This document shows, one piece after another, positions 6,842 to 38,046 of a DNA stretch of 64,000 bases (the first letter of the stretch is position 1; every line of letters begins with the position of its first letter). The stretch is taken from the NCBI RefSeq assembly GCF_018069865.1, contig NZ_JAGQDG010000006.1, forward strand, positions 310,001 through 374,000, read 5' to 3'. The stretch comes from Ideonella paludis. Its GTDB lineage: Bacteria > Pseudomonadota > Gammaproteobacteria > Burkholderiales > Burkholderiaceae_C. The notes under the pieces were generated by a model. The model was not told where the DNA came from, did not search any database, and saw nothing but the letters and a program-made list of their open reading frames with translations. Position numbers and translations under genes: made by a program.

Positions 6842-7972
6842 CTATTCAAGACCGTGTAGCCAACCACTGCAGGCCCAATCATTGAGCAACTCAAAGGCAT
6901 CGGGGCTCAATGCAGCCACTTCTTTGGCGCTGAGTCGCCGCTCATTGGCCAAGCGCTGCATCAAGCGGGCATCTTTGCCACCGGCGCGGAAGGACTCGCC
7001 GTTGATGTAGATGCAACGCGCATCAAACATCATCCGGGTTCGCGCGTCCAAGCGAGCGCCCTGACCCGGCTCCACCGGCTCACCGGAAGCAAACCAGACA
7101 ATGTCCTTGGGCTCGGTCAGCGTCTCGCCCAAGGCACAGTGCAGGCTGTGCATGTCGTTCAGCGCCTCGATCACCGCTTTGGCCGCAAAGGTCTGCAGCG
7201 CCTCTGGGATCAAGCCCGGCTGGTCGGTGGCGCTTTGAGCGGGGTCGCGATAGTGCGGCTCTTGCTCGGGCGCCTCTAGCGCATCAATCATGCGCTGCAA
7301 GACCTCACGCGCGGTTTGCGTGGGCGTGGGCGTGCGGAAGCCCACCGAGCAGGTCATGCAATCCTCGCTCTCGGCGATGCCGTCGTGGCCCCAGCGCGGC
7401 GGCACATAGAGCATGTCGCCCGGCTCCAGCACCCACTCTTCGGTCGGCTCAAACTGTGCGAGCAGCTTGACTGGCATGCCCGGCACCAGGCTGTGGTCCT
7501 TGACGGGCCCCACACGCCAGCGACGCCGGCCGCTGACCTGCAGCAAAAACACATCGTAGGAGTCGGTGTGCGGGCCCACGCCGCCGCCGGGCGTGGCATA
7601 GGAGATCATCACATCGTCGAGCCGTGCCTCGGGCACAAAGCGGAACTGCTGCAAGAGCTCATGCGCGGCGGGCACATGCAAATCCAAACCTTGCACCAGC
7701 AGGGTCCAATCCGCCTGCTTGGTCGAGGGCAATTGGCGCCGCCCAAACGGGCCGTGACGCAGCTTCCAAGCGCCGCCCTTGCGGGTGATCAGCCGAGACT
7801 CCACATCCTCGCTGCCGGCCAGGTCAAACAATGCGCTGCGCGCCAAAGGGGGCTGCACGCCGGGGATGGCTTGCCGGATGAGGCAAGGCTTTTTCTGCCA
7901 ATAGCGGCGCATGAACTGCGCGGGCGAGAGGCCCCCCAACAGGGGCAAAGTGCGTGTGGGATCGATGCTCAT
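6842..7972 (-). CDS. roxA: ribosomal protein uL16 3-hydroxylase-like cupin (RoxA/YcfD type)
   Basis: Fe(II)/2-oxoglutarate-dependent oxygenase of the JmjC/cupin family; YcfD/RoxA hydroxylates an arginine of ribosomal protein L16 in E. coli. 376 residues, as expected. The facial triad is visible as His135 and Asp137 in GPHTDSYDVF and His196 in RWGHDG; the N-terminal MRRYWQKKPCLIRQA segment is typical. The C-terminal part should be the winged-helix-like extension of the family. Divergent from the SlyD-like gene, with about 38 bases between the starts, so they share a promoter region. Confidence 0.85.
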   Translation of the reverse strand: MSIDPTRTLPLLGGLSPAQFMRRYWQKKPCLIRQAIPGVQPPLARSALFDLAGSEDVESRLITRKGGAWKLRHGPFGRRQLPSTKQADWTLLVQGLDLHVPAAHELLQQFRFVPEARLDDVMISYATPGGGVGPHTDSYDVFLLQVSGRRRWRVGPVKDHSLVPGMPVKLLAQFEPTEEWVLEPGDMLYVPPRWGHDGIAESEDCMTCSVGFRTPTPTQTAREVLQRMIDALEAPEQEPHYRDPAQSATDQPGLIPEALQTFAAKAVIEALNDMHSLHCALGETLTEPKDIVWFASGEPVEPGQGARLDARTRMMFDARCIYINGESFRAGGKDARLMQRLANERRLSAKEVAALSPDAFELLNDWACSGWLHGLE

Positions 7973-8010
7973 GGGCTCGATTGTCCACGGCCTTGTGCGA
8001 TCATCCCTGG

Positions 8011-8532
8011 ATGAACATCACTTCTCCTTGCGTGGTGACGCTCACTTGGGTACTTTCTGATGCCCAAGGCCAGCTCATCGATGAATTGACCGATCCCGTG
8101 GAGTTCTTCTACGGCGGCGAAGACCTGCTCCCCAAGGTCGAAGAGGTCCTGCTGGGCCAACACGAGGGCTTTGAAGCCCATCTGCACCTGGAGCCTGAGC
8201 ACGCCTTTGGCGACTACAACCCTGAGTTGGTGTGCTTTGAAGAGCGCGCTCTGTTCCCAGAACAGATCGAAGCCGGCATGCAGGTCGAAGGCCTGCCTGA
8301 AGGCGCGCAAAGCGCCGACATGCCGCAGGACCTGATCTACACCATCACCGAGGTCTACCCCACCCACGTGGTGCTGGACGCCAACCACCCGCTGGCCGGC
8401 ATGGCCCTGCGCATTGCCCTCAAGGTGGTCGATGTGCGTGAAGCCACCGAGGACGAGCAAAGCGCCGGCTCGGTCAGCGAAACACCGCTGTCCCTGATGC
8501 GTGGCGCACCACCCGACGCCTCACTACACTGA
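8011..8532 (+). CDS. FKBP-type peptidyl-prolyl isomerase, SlyD-like
   Basis: Cytoplasmic proline isomerase/chaperone of the SlyD branch of FKBPs, 173 residues. The FKBP core is interrupted by the insert-in-flap domain (HLHLEPEHAFGDYNPELV), and the conserved NHPLAGMAL motif closes the domain, as in SlyD. The metal-binding His-rich tail of E. coli SlyD is absent. ATG 8011 was chosen from the family alignment (VVTLTWVLSDAQGQLIDE follows at once). It sits just upstream of the protease-FHA pair. Confidence 0.85.
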   Translation: MNITSPCVVTLTWVLSDAQGQLIDELTDPVEFFYGGEDLLPKVEEVLLGQHEGFEAHLHLEPEHAFGDYNPELVCFEERALFPEQIEAGMQVEGLPEGAQSADMPQDLIYTITEVYPTHVVLDANHPLAGMALRIALKVVDVREATEDEQSAGSVSETPLSLMRGAPPDASLH

Positions 8533-33366: not shown

Positions 33367-34845
33367 ATGACCACCTCTTCCTCACCACTCTCCCAGCTCA
33401 ACGACCCCAGCTTGCTCAAGACCGACGCCCTGATCGGCGGCGAGTGGGTGGCGTCTTCCAACCGCTTTGCCGTGACGGACCCAGCCACCGGCGAGCACCT
33501 GGCCGATGTGGCCAACCTGGGGGCCACCGACGCACACAACGCCATCGTCGCGGCCAACAAGGCTTGGCCTGCTTGGCGCGCCAAGCCCGCCAAGGAGCGC
33601 GCCGCTATCTTGATGCGCTGGTTTGCCCTGCTGCACGCCAACGCCGACGACCTGGCCCGCCTGATGACGGCCGAGCAAGGCAAGCCCCTGGCGGAAGCGC
33701 GCGGTGAGGTCACCTATGGCGCGAGCTTTGTCGAGTGGTTTGCCGAAGAGGCCAAGCGCGTCTATGGCGAGACTATTCCCACCACCGACAACAACAAGCG
33801 TTATCTTGTCGTCAAGCAGCCCATCGGCGTGTGCGCGGCCATCACGCCTTGGAACTTCCCCATCGCCATGATCACCCGCAAAGTGGCCCCAGCCCTGGCT
33901 GCCGGCTGCCCAGTGGTGATCAAGCCCGCCGAGCAAACGCCGCTCTCCGCCCTGGCCGTGGCCGAGCTGGCCCAGCGGGCCGGCATGCCTGCGGGCGTGC
34001 TGAACATCTTGACGGCCGATGGCGACAACTCGATTGAGATTGGCAAAGTGCTGTGCAGCTCCGACGTGGTGCGGCACTTGTCCTTCACCGGCTCCACCGA
34101 AGTCGGCCGCATCTTGGCCGCGCAATGCGCGCCCACCATCAAGAAGATCTCGCTAGAGTTGGGCGGCAATGCACCCTTCATCGTGTTTGACGACGCAGAC
34201 CTGGACTCTGCCGTCGAAGGCGCCATGGTCAGCAAATACCGCAATGCCGGACAAACCTGCGTGTGCGCCAACCGCTTTTACGTGCAGAGCAGCGTGTACG
34301 ACGCCTTTGTGGCCAAGCTGGCCGAGAAGGCGGCCGCCATCAAGGTGGGCAATGGCTTTGAGCCCGGCATCAACCAAGGCCCGCAGATCGACGAGCCGTC
34401 GATGCAGAAGATCGAAACCCTGGTGGCCGACGCGCTGGACAAGGGCGCCAAAGTGGTGGTGGGCGGCGAGCGCATTGGGGAGCGTTTCTACACACCCACG
34501 GTGCTCTCAGGCGTGACGCCCGAGATGCGCGTGGCCCGCGAAGAAATCTTTGGCCCAGTCGCACCGATCTTCCGCTTCGACACAGAAGCCGAAGCCATCG
34601 AGTTGGCCAATGCCACCGAGTTCGGCCTGGCCAGTTATTTCTATAGCCGCGACATCGGCCGCATCTTCCGCGTGGGCGAAGGCCTGGAGTACGGCATGGT
34701 GGGCGTGAACACCGGTCTGATCTCCACCGCCGAAGTGCCCTTCGGCGGCGTCAAGCAATCCGGCCTGGGCCGCGAAGGTGCACGCCAGGGCATGGATGAC
34801 TATGTAGAGGTCAAGTACCTCTGCTTGGGTGATATTCAGAAGTAA
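33367..34845 (+). CDS. gabD: succinate-semialdehyde dehydrogenase
   Basis: NAD(P)-dependent aldehyde dehydrogenase, 492 residues, oxidising succinate semialdehyde to succinate. Visible: AITPWNFPIAMITRK (cofactor site), FTGSTEVGR, the catalytic Glu in LELGGNAPFIVFDDADLD and the catalytic Cys in NAGQTCVCANRF. The end PFGGVKQSGLGREG is typical of the GabD subgroup. Part of the gabTD unit; a structured repeat element begins 39 bases after its stop. Confidence 0.94.
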   Translation: MTTSSSPLSQLNDPSLLKTDALIGGEWVASSNRFAVTDPATGEHLADVANLGATDAHNAIVAANKAWPAWRAKPAKERAAILMRWFALLHANADDLARLMTAEQGKPLAEARGEVTYGASFVEWFAEEAKRVYGETIPTTDNNKRYLVVKQPIGVCAAITPWNFPIAMITRKVAPALAAGCPVVIKPAEQTPLSALAVAELAQRAGMPAGVLNILTADGDNSIEIGKVLCSSDVVRHLSFTGSTEVGRILAAQCAPTIKKISLELGGNAPFIVFDDADLDSAVEGAMVSKYRNAGQTCVCANRFYVQSSVYDAFVAKLAEKAAAIKVGNGFEPGINQGPQIDEPSMQKIETLVADALDKGAKVVVGGERIGERFYTPTVLSGVTPEMRVAREEIFGPVAPIFRFDTEAEAIELANATEFGLASYFYSRDIGRIFRVGEGLEYGMVGVNTGLISTAEVPFGGVKQSGLGREGARQGMDDYVEVKYLCLGDIQK

Positions 34846-35513
34846 ATCAGCGGCTTGGCAGTAACGCGCGGCGGTTTGAGCGTGCGCTGCCACAAGCCAT
34901 GGCCCGGGGCTCATGCATCGGCGGTCGGCTGAAGCCGACTCCCTTCGGTGCTCGGTCAAGGGCGTGCGCCGTCAAACTCCCTCCGCTCGCCTTCGGCTCG
35001 CTATGGTCAAACAGTGACGGCGAGTATGTTCTTGAAGCGCGCGAATACGCGCGCCACGCCCTTGCCCTGCGCGCCTCAGCGCCGAAGAAATCGCCCCGGG
35101 CCATGGCCTGCGGCAGCGCGGTGAGGGCGGGGGTGGCTTGCGGACGGGACACGATGTGTCGATGCCGTCCGTCTTAGTGGTTCGCCGAGCCAGTAGTGCC
35201 GTGTTCTCTGCAGTGCTGGGCTGATCTCTCGGGAAAGCGTCATCAGTAGCAAACTCATGAGGACGTTTATGTAGGTGCCCGCTTGAGTAGATCTTTGACA
35301 CCCTTCCCCCTGCCGAATTCGCCCAAACGGTCTAACCGACTAATGACGCCAAAGGACATGGGGAAGAAGACTGACGGGATCGCTATGGGCTAGGCTAAAG
35401 AGAGCTAGATTTGAGACACAGCCCTGATTTCCAAAACATCAAGTCTCATGCAGCAATGTGGACAAGGCCTAAAACCTTGCTACTGAGTTCGGCGCGAAAA
35501 TGGGAGGTCTTCG
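34846..35513. other. gene-free stretch: repeat element A plus AT-richer spacer
   Basis: Holds the structured element at 34885-35118. The following roughly 395 bases are clearly lower in GC than the rest of the window and contain no gene I can support. The short ORFs in the repeat are conserved with the other copy only because the repeat is conserved. Confidence 0.6.
34885..35118 (+). repeat. structured repeat element, copy A (26-bp inverted ends, conserved core)
   Basis: 234 bases. The ends 34885-34910 and 35093-35118 are inverted repeats pairing at 24 of 26 positions; both mismatches would be G-U pairs in a minus-strand transcript. The 182-base core (34911-35092) matches the reverse complement of copy B at most positions. 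Inside are a GTCGGC-TGAA-GCCGAC hairpin (34924-34939), an inner pair CAAGGGCGTG (34957-34966)/CACGCCCTTG (35055-35064) and CGTCA/TGACG (34970-34974, 35015-35019). It lies 39 bases after gabD. Confidence 0.75.
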
Positions 35514-35996
35514 GTGACAGCTTGGGCTCGCCTCAGTGATGTCGGTTTTCTCGGCGTCGATTTTGAATTCGAAAGCTCGGTTCCGGCCCTGGCCGCAACC
35601 CGATTCGTATACGAGCAGCATCGCCTCTCAGCCTCGCTCAACGGTCAACTTCTAGCCGTTAGCGATGGTGCAAGGCGGCTTCAATTGGGATCAGAAATTT
35701 ACAAGCCAGTGCGAAAGTGGTTTCGCGTCGTTGCATGGACTGGCTCGGACGGAAGGACTCTGGATCTAGCGTGGAGGCGCGACCAGCTCTTGGGGCCAGA
35801 ACTGCTCTTGCTCATCGAGCCTGGGTCCCGCCGCTACTCGATCGGCAGCGATCAATTGCAGAGATTTAGGATCGGAACGTCTGTGAGTATCGTGAGCTCC
35901 GATCCACATGCAACCGATCATTTCGGGGCTGAGATGATTGGTTTGCTGACCTATGCGTGGGCCATGTTCGAACGGGACCGGCGCGCGACAGCATGA
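35514..35996 (+). CDS. hypothetical protein in the low-GC island
   Basis: 160 residues from GTG 35514, with GGGAGG at 35502-35507, six bases upstream. The protein is soluble, without signal or membrane helix, rich in beta-prone stretches (LSASLNGQLLAVSDGARRLQL, KWFRVVAWTGSDGRTLDLAW) and ends in ERDRRATA. Codon use is markedly less GC-biased at third positions than in the flanking genes, which points to transfer. I recognise no family. It lies between the inverted copies A and B of the repeat element. Confidence 0.6.
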   Translation: MTAWARLSDVGFLGVDFEFESSVPALAATRFVYEQHRLSASLNGQLLAVSDGARRLQLGSEIYKPVRKWFRVVAWTGSDGRTLDLAWRRDQLLGPELLLLIEPGSRRYSIGSDQLQRFRIGTSVSIVSSDPHATDHFGAEMIGLLTYAWAMFERDRRATA

Positions 35997-36099
35997 ATGT
36001 GGGTACTAGGACTTCACCGCATTGACTGGCAGAGGACCTGAAGCCGTCTCGCGACGGCTAGCCTCGAAACCCCACGCCTCGTCAACTCAGCACGCCGCC

Positions 36100-36540
36100 A
36101 TGCCCACGACATCCAAGAAACTCACCCTCCGCCTCGTTTGCCAGTCGATGCCCGAAACACCGTCTGAAGAAGGCCCACTGGACGTCGGCATTCAAGACAA
36201 AAAGCAGGCTGTGCACGCCGGGCGAAAGGGCCAAGACGGTGAGATGTGCTTTGAGTGCTCAGCCGAGGCACGCATCGATGCCTTGAGCGGGGACATCGAT
36301 TTTCGGGGTCCGTTTGTCCACGGTACGCCCCAAGCTCGCTTCCTGTACCTGAGCTGGAAGCGCACAGGTGCCAGCGCCACGCCTTGGTACTGGCGGCTGA
36401 AGATTCCGCTCGCCGGCATCGGTGCTCAAAACATTGCCACGCTGCGGGGTGGCGAGTGGCTTGTCGCAGACATCACGGGTCGGCGCCCACATGCGTCCGA
36501 GCCGATTATTTGGAAGCGCGTCGCTGACGAGAAAGCGTGA
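36100..36540 (+). CDS. DUF5990 family protein
   Basis: 146 residues. The pattern fits DUF5990: LTLRLVCQSMPETP at the start, GIQDKKQAVHAGRKGQDGEM, FRGPFVHGTPQARFLYLSW and the closing RLKIPLAGIG. The family is small, soluble and of unknown function, found patchily in many bacteria. ATG 36100 was chosen from the family-like start; 26 in-frame residues upstream look non-coding. It is 103 bases after the preceding ORF and 29 bases before repeat copy B. Identification is from memory of the family pattern. Confidence 0.65.
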   Translation: MPTTSKKLTLRLVCQSMPETPSEEGPLDVGIQDKKQAVHAGRKGQDGEMCFECSAEARIDALSGDIDFRGPFVHGTPQARFLYLSWKRTGASATPWYWRLKIPLAGIGAQNIATLRGGEWLVADITGRRPHASEPIIWKRVADEKA

Positions 36541-36569
36541 AGCGCTCGCTCGCGCCACCACGCCAACCG

Positions 36570-36804
36570 CCCTGGCGCGGGGTAGGCCCCAGGGCGATTT
36601 GAGAGGCGCTGAGGCGCGCAGGGCAAGGGCGTGGCGAGCGTAATCGCGCGCTTCAAGAACATACTCGCCGTCATTGTTTGACCATAGCGAGCCGAAGGCG
36701 AGCGGAGGGAGTTTGACGGCGCACGGCCTTGCCCGAGCACCGAAGGGAGTCGGCTTTAGCCGACCGTCTCTCGCATGAGCCCTGGGGCCTACCCCGCGCC
36801 TGGG
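36570..36804 (-). repeat. structured repeat element, copy B (inverted relative to copy A)
   Basis: 235 bases. The ends 36570-36595 and 36779-36804 are inverted repeats with 25 of 26 positions paired. Their sequence differs from the ends of copy A, while the 183-base core (36596-36778) is the reverse complement of A's core with about a dozen or so differences and one indel. The hairpin GTCGGC-TAAA-GCCGAC (read on the minus strand) is kept with a changed loop base. It lies 29 bases after the DUF5990 gene. Confidence 0.75.
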
Positions 36805-36848
36805 CTAGCAGGCCACCACCTGAAAGCGGCATCGAACTGGCAGAGCGG

Positions 36849-36874
36849 CCCTTCGACAGGCTCAGGGCGAACGG
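36849..36874. repeat. dispersed 26-bp extragenic repeat (the source of PFALSLSKG/PFDRLRANG artefact ORFs)
   Basis: CCCTTCGACAGGCTCAGGGC followed by GAACGG. Translated, it gives PFDRLRANG on one strand and PFALSLSKG on the other, peptides that turn up in many spurious bacterial ORFs, so this is a known kind of widespread short intergenic repeat. One copy is seen in this window. Confidence 0.7.
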
Positions 36875-36960
36875 TGGGGAAGCTTGGCTCCACACATGCC
36901 GCTATGAACGCTCAGGCAGGCCGAGTGCGAACAATTCAAAACCGTGGCGTCAAGACCAGC

Positions 36961-37851
36961 TCAATCGTCATTCGCCGCCGCATCCGCCGCCAGCAAGCGG
37001 CCGAGCTGGCCGACTGAGGCTTGGGTGGCCGCATGGCGCAGCAGAGATTGCGCGTCGCGGCCATGGGCGGGGTACTGGCCCACGCCGGCGCGGGCGGTGA
37101 TGGGCACGGCTTGGCCGCCGACTTGGAAGGGCTGCATCACGGTTTGCACCAGCTTTTGGGCCACGCGCTGGCCATCGTCTTCGGCGTCTATCCAGGCCAG
37201 GAGCACGGCAAACATGTCGCTGCCTAAGGACGCCACCACGTCGCTGGCGCGCAAAGAGGCGCGCAGGCGCACGGCGGCTTTGCGGCGCAGCACGTTGGCG
37301 GCTTCAACGCCGTAGGCCGACTCGACCGGACGGAAGCCGTCGAGCTGCAGCACGATCAAGGCCATGGAGGCGGGCTCGCGCTCGCGCAGGGCCAGCAGAT
37401 GGGTCATGTGCTCCATCAACTGGCTGTGGTTGGGCAGGCCAGTCGCCAGGTCGCTGCTCAAGGCACGGCGGGCGATGTCGTCGGTGCGCTTGCGCTCAAT
37501 GGCCAGGCGCAACACGCGGCCCAGCATCTCGGGGTTGACCTCGCGGGTGGAGATGATTTCGCGCACGCCTAACTGCACCAATCGCTGGCAGAGGGGCCAA
37601 GAGGGCTCCAGCGCCATCACCACCACCGTGGTGTCCAGCAGAGCACTGGGCAAGCCCGTCCAGCCGGCCAAGGTCTCAACGCCGCCGATCAGGTTGAGGT
37701 CAATCAGCAGAGCGTGATGGCTCTCCTGGTGCAAACGCGCTGAGGCCTCTTCCAGCGACGGGCAGGCCTGGGTCACAAACGGCCCAAAGGCCGAGGTGAA
37801 CAAGTCGGGGGTCTTGGTGGAAAGGCAGAGAACCTGGAGCGGGCTGGACAT
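36961..37851 (-). CDS. response-regulator-like protein with degenerate GGDEF domain
   Basis: 296 residues. The N-terminal part (1-120) resembles a receiver domain (HALLIDLNLIGG with the Asp at the phospho-acceptor place, then VVVMALEPSW and VREIISTREV). The C-terminal part is a GGDEF fold (ATGLPNHSQLMEHM, VLQLDGFRPVESAYG), but the active-site loop reads LGSDMF instead of GGDEF, so cyclase activity is unlikely. The inhibitory-site RxxD is kept (RASD just before), so it may bind c-di-GMP. ATG 37851 gives the start MSSPLQVLCLS. Confidence 0.78.
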   Translation of the reverse strand: MSSPLQVLCLSTKTPDLFTSAFGPFVTQACPSLEEASARLHQESHHALLIDLNLIGGVETLAGWTGLPSALLDTTVVVMALEPSWPLCQRLVQLGVREIISTREVNPEMLGRVLRLAIERKRTDDIARRALSSDLATGLPNHSQLMEHMTHLLALREREPASMALIVLQLDGFRPVESAYGVEAANVLRRKAAVRLRASLRASDVVASLGSDMFAVLLAWIDAEDDGQRVAQKLVQTVMQPFQVGGQAVPITARAGVGQYPAHGRDAQSLLRHAATQASVGQLGRLLAADAAANDD

Positions 37852-38046
37852 GATGACAACGGCGGATTTTGTTTGCAACCATGATGCCTAAGCGTGCTGA
37901 CGCGCACCAGCGCGAAAACACCCAGAGACACAGTGTCAAGCTGTCAGGACTGCGTCAGACATGACCATACGGTGGTGTATGCAGCAAGCTTCGTGCCCAG
38001 TGCTAACGGGCCGGCGCCTTTGCAGCACGGCCCAAGCAAGCCGTCT

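Follow-up and report, generated by a model that had tools for sequence, protein, structure and literature searches.

A stretch of 64,000 nucleotides from Ideonella paludis (contig NZ_JAGQDG010000006.1, positions 310,001 to 374,000; called the window here, to which all plain coordinates refer) contains two hairpin elements, A and B, in inverted orientation around two genes, and we were interested in what this pair is and how it came to lie there. It forms one unit of two ~235-nt hairpins, which are inverted, point outwards and each have their own self-paired outer arms around a common core. With about even confidence, we take the pair to be one representative of a family of twin-hairpin units in the Burkholderiales, a REPIN-like mobile unit that is recognised by its structure and has turned into a platform for gene exchange. 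Hairpin A, on the left, spans 34885..35118, with the minus strand as folding strand and its outer end to the left, and hairpin B, on the right, spans 36570..36804, with the plus strand as folding strand and its outer end to the right. Both are 89% complementary over 212 nt, and orientation and coordinates agree with the original prediction, which had been made from the letters of the window alone. The fold it described was also found: counted by eye, the 26-nt outer arms pair with themselves at 24 of 26 positions in A and 25 of 26 in B, and the fold includes an internal loop (GATTT/GCATGA) and a second stem, which is CGGC/GCCG in A and GAGA/TCTC in B. RNA folding led to z-scores of −9.66 for B and −8.87 for A, and as none of 200 shuffles was equally stable, the window hairpins are not due to chance.

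Further copies, which the original prediction had proposed to search for, are numerous and differ in their ends. When the assembly of the window genome (G000) was searched, 21 matches to B were obtained, reflecting 15 hairpins and one 27-bp end remnant. The hairpin copies align into two end classes, A and B, each with many members, and the ends of the two window hairpins are each common to 13 further copies of the Ideonella lineage. The predicted difference between the ends of A and B is therefore real, but neither a one-off nor the result of drift between two copies. Some B-ended hairpins of G000 share the core of A and others have a second core variant; this mixing of core variants across end classes suggests that hairpins recombined with each other while retaining their ends, and we regard it as a trace of exchange. 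At six places of G000 an A end and a B end are inverted and outward-pointing around ~1.0 to 3.2 kb of cargo, with only a remnant of B retained at one of them, and at four places a hairpin is unpaired. Two of these unpaired hairpins (C18:113166, B, minus; C18:143318, A, plus) lie 30 kb apart and are oriented as in a unit. A giant unit was nevertheless rejected for this stretch, the content of which reads by eye as ordinary chromosomal genes.

Matches to B were detected in 9 of 60 genomes, the window genome included, with the next most in G004, which is of the same genus, and G020, which is of another. With a degenerate core pattern, at least 113 stretches were detected in genome contigs. Among the matches listed, 71 of 80 stretches have titles naming taxa that we take to belong to the Burkholderiales, and the genera named are Rubrivivax, Pseudacidovorax, Xenophilus, Ideonella, Methylibium, Variovorax, Piscinibacter, Aquabacterium, Rhodoferax, Albitalea and Aquincola; the other nine are eight records of Pseudomonadota, Proteobacteria or a beta-proteobacterium and one Chloroflexi metagenome bin with a weak match only. 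The same core pattern, which is strict, was found in 26 of 399 genomes sampled from the family (16 of 141 genera, counting that of the window) and, in a sample of the class, in 1 of 369 genomes, which is the window genome itself. These frequencies are lower bounds, as G022, with three weak matches to B, has none by pattern. Neither the B query in plasmids or phages nor the core pattern in viral contigs gave a match, and plasmids and phages were rejected as carriers of B.

The arrangement of the window is the rule among neighbouring hairpins. In 99 non-duplicate loci the strand order '-+' was observed 64 times, '++' four times, '+-' twice and '--' never (67, 5, 2 and 0 in the raw count of 109 loci with a match, duplicates included). 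About 30 of the loci were taken around known matches in G000, G004 and G020, while 80 pattern-scan loci were unselected for pairing; the 71 non-duplicate ones among the latter alone showed '-+' 46 times and '+-' twice, and restriction of the pattern-scan loci to core scores of at least 40 led to 37 '-+', one '--' and one '++'. The gap between the cores is 150 nt or less in 34 of the 64 '-+' pairs, two of the 34 being overlapping fragments. Outside Ideonella, units often measure ~500-590 bp with a spacer of 33-90 nt; they are longer in Pseudacidovorax, and a few loci have 0.4-1.9 kb between the hairpins. Hairpins with both arms resolved are ~228-258 nt long. Longer arrays occur as well, for example A- cargo B+ cargo B+ in L060. 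In Methylibium the repeated entity is the whole unit including a partly conserved spacer. Furthermore, a block beside two Methylibium units, which starts exactly at the outer foot of a unit, recurs with 98-99.9% identity at a contig end (L247 1401-5509, L248 1-4096), which may be a duplication or an assembly matter.

Self-paired outer stems were detected in 123 of 135 hairpins, compared to 5.3% when 5' and 3' halves from different hairpins were mixed and 0.1% with shuffled flanks; all stem, strand and mismatch counts exclude duplicate records as well as hairpins that score below 80 in the core or are truncated at a locus end. The outer arms on the left of a unit are unrelated to those on the right, with a median identity of 50% at the best offset (47 units). 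Outside the hairpins, the first 20 nt read outwards on the folding strand are C-rich, with A over T (38 units). This composition is reminiscent of Rho-use sites, a likeness by analogy.

Covariation, which the original prediction had wanted checked, is strong; two of the outcomes named there as refuting, a lack of further copies with different ends and a lack of covariation, thus did not come about. In 24 hairpins of the Ideonella lineage, 97.4% of the cells of 71 pairs are paired versus 87.0% after shuffling (0/500), cells with a double change number 197 versus 67.8, and pairing falls to 32-44% when the partners are slid by one to three columns. Changed sequence with kept pairing had been read as selection for a folded single strand, and this holds for the 24 hairpins of the Ideonella lineage as well as for 123 hairpins from multiple genera. 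The two exceptions in the outer arms of A are G·T on the minus strand, as predicted, and this pattern generalises to nearly every hairpin on the inner-to-outer strand. Counted inside helices only, the outer stems of the 123 hairpins contain 145 G·T and 43 A·C, with the same direction in all seven groups (G000 15:3, G004 18:2, Methylibium 20:9, Pseudacidovorax 16:7, Xenophilus 10:4, Variovorax 7:0, others 59:18). A looser first count including the internal loop had given 150 G·T and 97 A·C, and Methylibium (22:21) and Pseudacidovorax (16:18) were unbiased in it; the helix-only definition is stricter and was picked after it, and the comparison of fold energies, which is independent of that choice, agrees. 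In this comparison, from which, as from the helix-only count, the 12 of 135 stems scoring below 12 were left out, the fold of the inner-to-outer strand is more stable than that of its complement in 118 of 123 hairpins under DNA parameters and in 111 under RNA parameters, with a median difference of −6.5 and −8.6 kcal/mol respectively. The p-values are overstated as the copies are related, while the agreement across genera stands. The strand whose fold is kept is thus one particular strand, running from inner 5' to outer 3', and as the hairpins are inverted, either strand of the unit has a hairpin of the folding type at its 3' end.

A role as RNA is a serious rival at this point, to which we give a real though minor chance. 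The hairpins would then be structured non-coding RNAs or structures of 3' untranslated regions, transcribed outwards from the middle of the unit, so that each pair would consist of two divergent RNA genes, with mobility being secondary. The strong covariation together with G·U use on one strand would be expected from this, purines prevail at the unpaired positions of the folding strand (A 703, G 654, T 469, C 375), and the folding strand of B is also the sense strand of the cargo genes. Sigma-70-like promoters, in contrast, were not found on either strand of 34780-36980 (0 versus 0.4 expected), and in nine units two opposed promoters would hardly fit into the spacer of 33-45 nt. The strand preference is at least as consistent with the DNA as with the RNA parameters, and an Rfam scan of the window led only to a tRNA at gathering score; even at E-values up to 10, the best match of the whole hairpin was at chance level (E 2.3, a microRNA family far below its cut-off).

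How the unit relates to its site can be seen from related genomes, in which the 1.9-kb stretch with A and B as its two ends is missing at this place. In the window it is preceded by an aldehyde dehydrogenase gene (33367..34845, plus), which we take to be gabD-like, and followed by a convergent gene (36961..37878, minus), presumably for a GGDEF-type regulator. Seven genomes of the same genus (L078-L083, L085) have the gabD-like gene and then the convergent GGDEF-type gene within ~100 nt and no unit, and the same two genes lie within ~300 nt with no unit between them in L084 and L087; four further loci showed no downstream match. The original prediction had asked for empty sites. The unit-less sites found are short intergenic stretches, one of which (L087) has a terminator-like hairpin. 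In general, units lie between genes and almost never between two divergent ones: the flanks of 34 classified units are convergent in 16 cases, tandem in 17 and divergent in one. These 34 come from 67 pairs, 10 of which had a neighbouring gene more than 700 bp away while the rest failed score or gene filters, and the calls are heuristic (L023 was called convergent and is tandem by eye). The predicted stop codons lie 39 bp before A (gene end 34845) and 29 bp before B (gene end 36540).

By eye, partly conserved sequence extends ~20 nt past the hairpin feet in Ideonella. It comprises the inner flank of A (35119..35138, minus), of which ~20 nt are partly conserved among A copies, and the inner flank of B (36550..36569, plus), which is conserved among B copies and reads CGCCACCACGCCAACCG here and commonly GTGCCACCCCACCACCCG; the outer flank of B (36805..36830, plus) shows a CCACC-type motif, likewise by eye. 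Just outside B, at 36849-36874, lies CCCTTCGACAGGCTCAGGGCGAACGG, which we assume to be a common proteobacterial intergenic repeat.

Between the hairpins, the cargo interval (35119..36569) contains two genes, so that the predicted flanked two-gene island stands, with the refinement that both genes are the cargo of one unit. Cargo gene 1 (35514..35996, plus) encodes 160 aa and showed no Pfam match at E 0.01 and no match in the plasmid collection, and cargo gene 2 (36100..36540, plus; longest reading frame from 36022) encodes a DUF5990 protein (PF19452, E 5.8e-26). Throughout 12 A-B intervals of G000 and G004, 22 of 24 called reading frames read from A to B, although the calling was crude and a toxin pair in L059 and a helix-turn-helix (HTH) gene in L061 were lost to overlapping frames. 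Of the 11 genes in these intervals that Pfam recognises at E 0.01, 9 are oriented from A towards B, namely DUF5990, GFA, DUF7674, DUF2971, TonB_C, a nucleotidyltransferase, a RelE-like protein (below its cut-off) and two HTH genes. At several sites a leader sequence comes after A, and these leaders belong to two families. HTH antitoxin-like genes with 73% identity occur in two different units of the same genome (L060 4098-4379, L061 3905-4192).

At six sites shared by two genomes of the Ideonella lineage, G000 and G004, the chromosomal place is the same and the passengers differ wholly or in part. The outer flanks of these sites match with ~79-93% identity, with the right flank of L023/L061 lacking a match in the stretch compared. 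Outside the hairpins and the A-side leaders, no blastn match between the cargos was detected for L024/L060, L026/L059, L025/L058 and L023/L061, whereas part of the cargo is common in L022/L064, where L064 has no A, and L030/L065 differ inside the one hairpin present. The reading frames of L058 (G004 C5) at ~7156-8077 contain VSYTHLDVYKRQ, presumably a translated sequencing-adapter artefact, and this part of the assembly is to be distrusted.

The anatomy of the units, their strand preference, their absence from the window site in relatives and the differing passengers are shown directly. Beyond this, we infer that the unit spreads, or once spread, as a whole by means of an enzyme that would recognise the folded single strand and not its sequence, in the way proposed for REPINs. 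Enclosure of passenger genes by units would have arisen in the Ideonella lineage, and recombination within the conserved hairpins may then swap the passengers at fixed sites. Several observations weigh against this mobile, structure-recognised unit. No transposase or recombinase was present among 30 cargo proteins scanned with Pfam, no recurrent protein was seen by eye or by blastp among themselves on the inner sides of single hairpins, and an autonomous relative was seen neither inside larger units nor beside single hairpins (loci by eye, Pfam of the 30 cargo proteins). A target-site duplication was not shown, with a mean longest direct repeat of 4.7 nt compared to 4.2 nt in swapped controls (38 units). 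The stems of single hairpins are as good as those of paired ones (median stem score 20.95, n=32, versus 22.9, n=103; p 0.60), whereas REP singlets are reported to be more diverged by another measure. The number of further pair types in the 24 hairpins of the Ideonella lineage, 57, is not above the shuffled value of 57.4, and in L059 a ParE toxin and its addiction-module partner read from B to A. The difference in passengers rests on two genomes, of which G004 was assembled from a metagenome and shows visible artefacts. Two Pseudacidovorax sites have the unit in 5/6 and 6/6 genomes and are therefore old, and precise recent insertions were rejected for this genus, as nearly all genomes have the unit at two of the three sites. 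At L167, the third, two genomes are undecided, and the unit is whole or partial in three genomes and missing in one between matching flanks, which enclose ~230 bp (L261 1271-1501, G064); this may be an empty site or a deletion in the sense of a clean loss.

These negative results would suit passive long repeats, i.e. relics of a dead mobile element whose hairpins are idle, with turnover of passengers by hot-spot exchange through the flanking genes. The lack of an enzyme and of target duplications as well as the units at orthologous sites across Pseudacidovorax would be explained. Relics should, however, lose their strand-specific pairing, which is kept in seven taxon groups, and orthologous Pseudacidovorax hairpins are still ~84-94% identical while their immediate intergenic flanks no longer align, which makes this explanation improbable to us.

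A giant REPIN/BIME, with palindromes moved by a RAYT (TnpA-REP) transposase, shares the layout of the twin-hairpin units, as REPINs are described in PMC3116915 as inverted palindrome doublets with a spacer that are extragenic and fold in single-stranded DNA. Further likenesses are the short spacer and the dispersal between genes, and REPINs are thought to move as a folded single-stranded doublet. The units here differ in their ~235-nt multi-helix hairpins, compared to 20-40 bp for REP elements according to PMC3733652, in the unrelated outer arms within a unit and in the genes enclosed in some lineages. Matches to the Y1 transposase (PF01797) do not follow the units either: most of 21 genomes have one and the window genome two, G030, in which no unit was found, has twenty, and G003, G004 (a carrier) and G008 have none. 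As this correlation is missing and no such protein occurs among the 30 cargo proteins, RAYT/Y1 transposase was rejected as the driver. Arguments against membership in REPIN/REP are the size, the missing link to a RAYT and the stem scores of single hairpins, which show no decay, and we consider this origin very unlikely.

Equally hard to credit is a derivative of an integron, in which the hairpins would be overgrown attC-like sites and the cargo would be cassettes. In integrons the attC recombination site is recognised in its folded, single-stranded form, and the variable small genes that read mostly in one direction are a point in common; cargo types such as toxin-antitoxin and GFA resemble what we take to be typical cassette genes. 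The hairpins here, in contrast, occur in inverted pairs and not in direct arrays, and many units of other genera are without genes. Scans for box motifs, with the motifs as we assume them to be, led to 4 attC-like matches versus 2.4 expected in 18 cargo stretches. A single convincing one lies between two cargo genes (L024 7545-7601); part of the L024 cargo may thus descend from an integron, and attC sites were rejected as cargo borders. Nine genomes of the same genus with no or weak hairpin matches (G001, G003, G005-G008, G011, G013, G014) have the integron integrase undivided and over the cut-off, but it is broken in the two carriers of gene-filled units, G000, where it is split between two frames (C18:86214-87157; also C17:201385, C18:181200, C20:117188), and G004, where one 251-aa frame is without the middle (C2:1288268-1288942; L237-L240 and L244 for both genomes). 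On the other side, the integrase match of the carrier G020 is long and passes the cut-off, and no match passes it in four tested Pseudacidovorax carriers. The integrase state therefore does not follow the units, and IntI was rejected as the driver. Finally, neutral upkeep, in which template switching perfects long palindromes and would yield self-paired arms of arbitrary sequence and covariation without selection, was dropped with next to no probability left, as it predicts no strand preference and is largely refuted by the 145 G·T versus 43 A·C and the energy bias of 118/123; strand-biased C-to-T deamination could mimic the G·T excess, but A and not T dominates at unpaired positions.

Miniature inverted-repeat transposable elements (MITEs) and their composites with genes are, like the twin-hairpin units, non-coding, multi-copy and inverted at the ends, and can enclose genes. 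In the units, however, the outer arms are the most variable part, with only the pairing kept; they are not the sequence-conserved terminal inverted repeats of a MITE, and outside the feet there is only a weak composition bias. A target-site duplication did not emerge from the comparison of direct repeats given above. STAXI, listed as a repeated pseudoknot for Enterobacteriales in PMC2864571, and the other motifs of Weinberg 2010 resemble the units in a covarying structure possibly acting as RNA or single-stranded DNA. A 'Burkholderiales-1' motif is named without Rfam number in a table of the same source and may be an earlier sighting of the twin-hairpin element. Among the matches listed, titles and beginnings of abstracts in the open-access literature did not describe the element, which is no proof of its absence in print. 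The known families tested do not fit, and the units add a family of large, strikingly covarying structured elements not met in Rfam. If the single strand is active, they would offer a natural test system for the recognition of DNA ends by structure only. Tentatively, and as a possibility that we would not yet call probable, they may represent a new platform for gene exchange, in which strand-specific hairpin pairs, recognised by structure, mark fixed sites for the directional swapping of accessory genes and thereby fill an integron-like role with other parts. The units provide a concrete and testable route along which accessory genes might change at fixed sites from one species to another.

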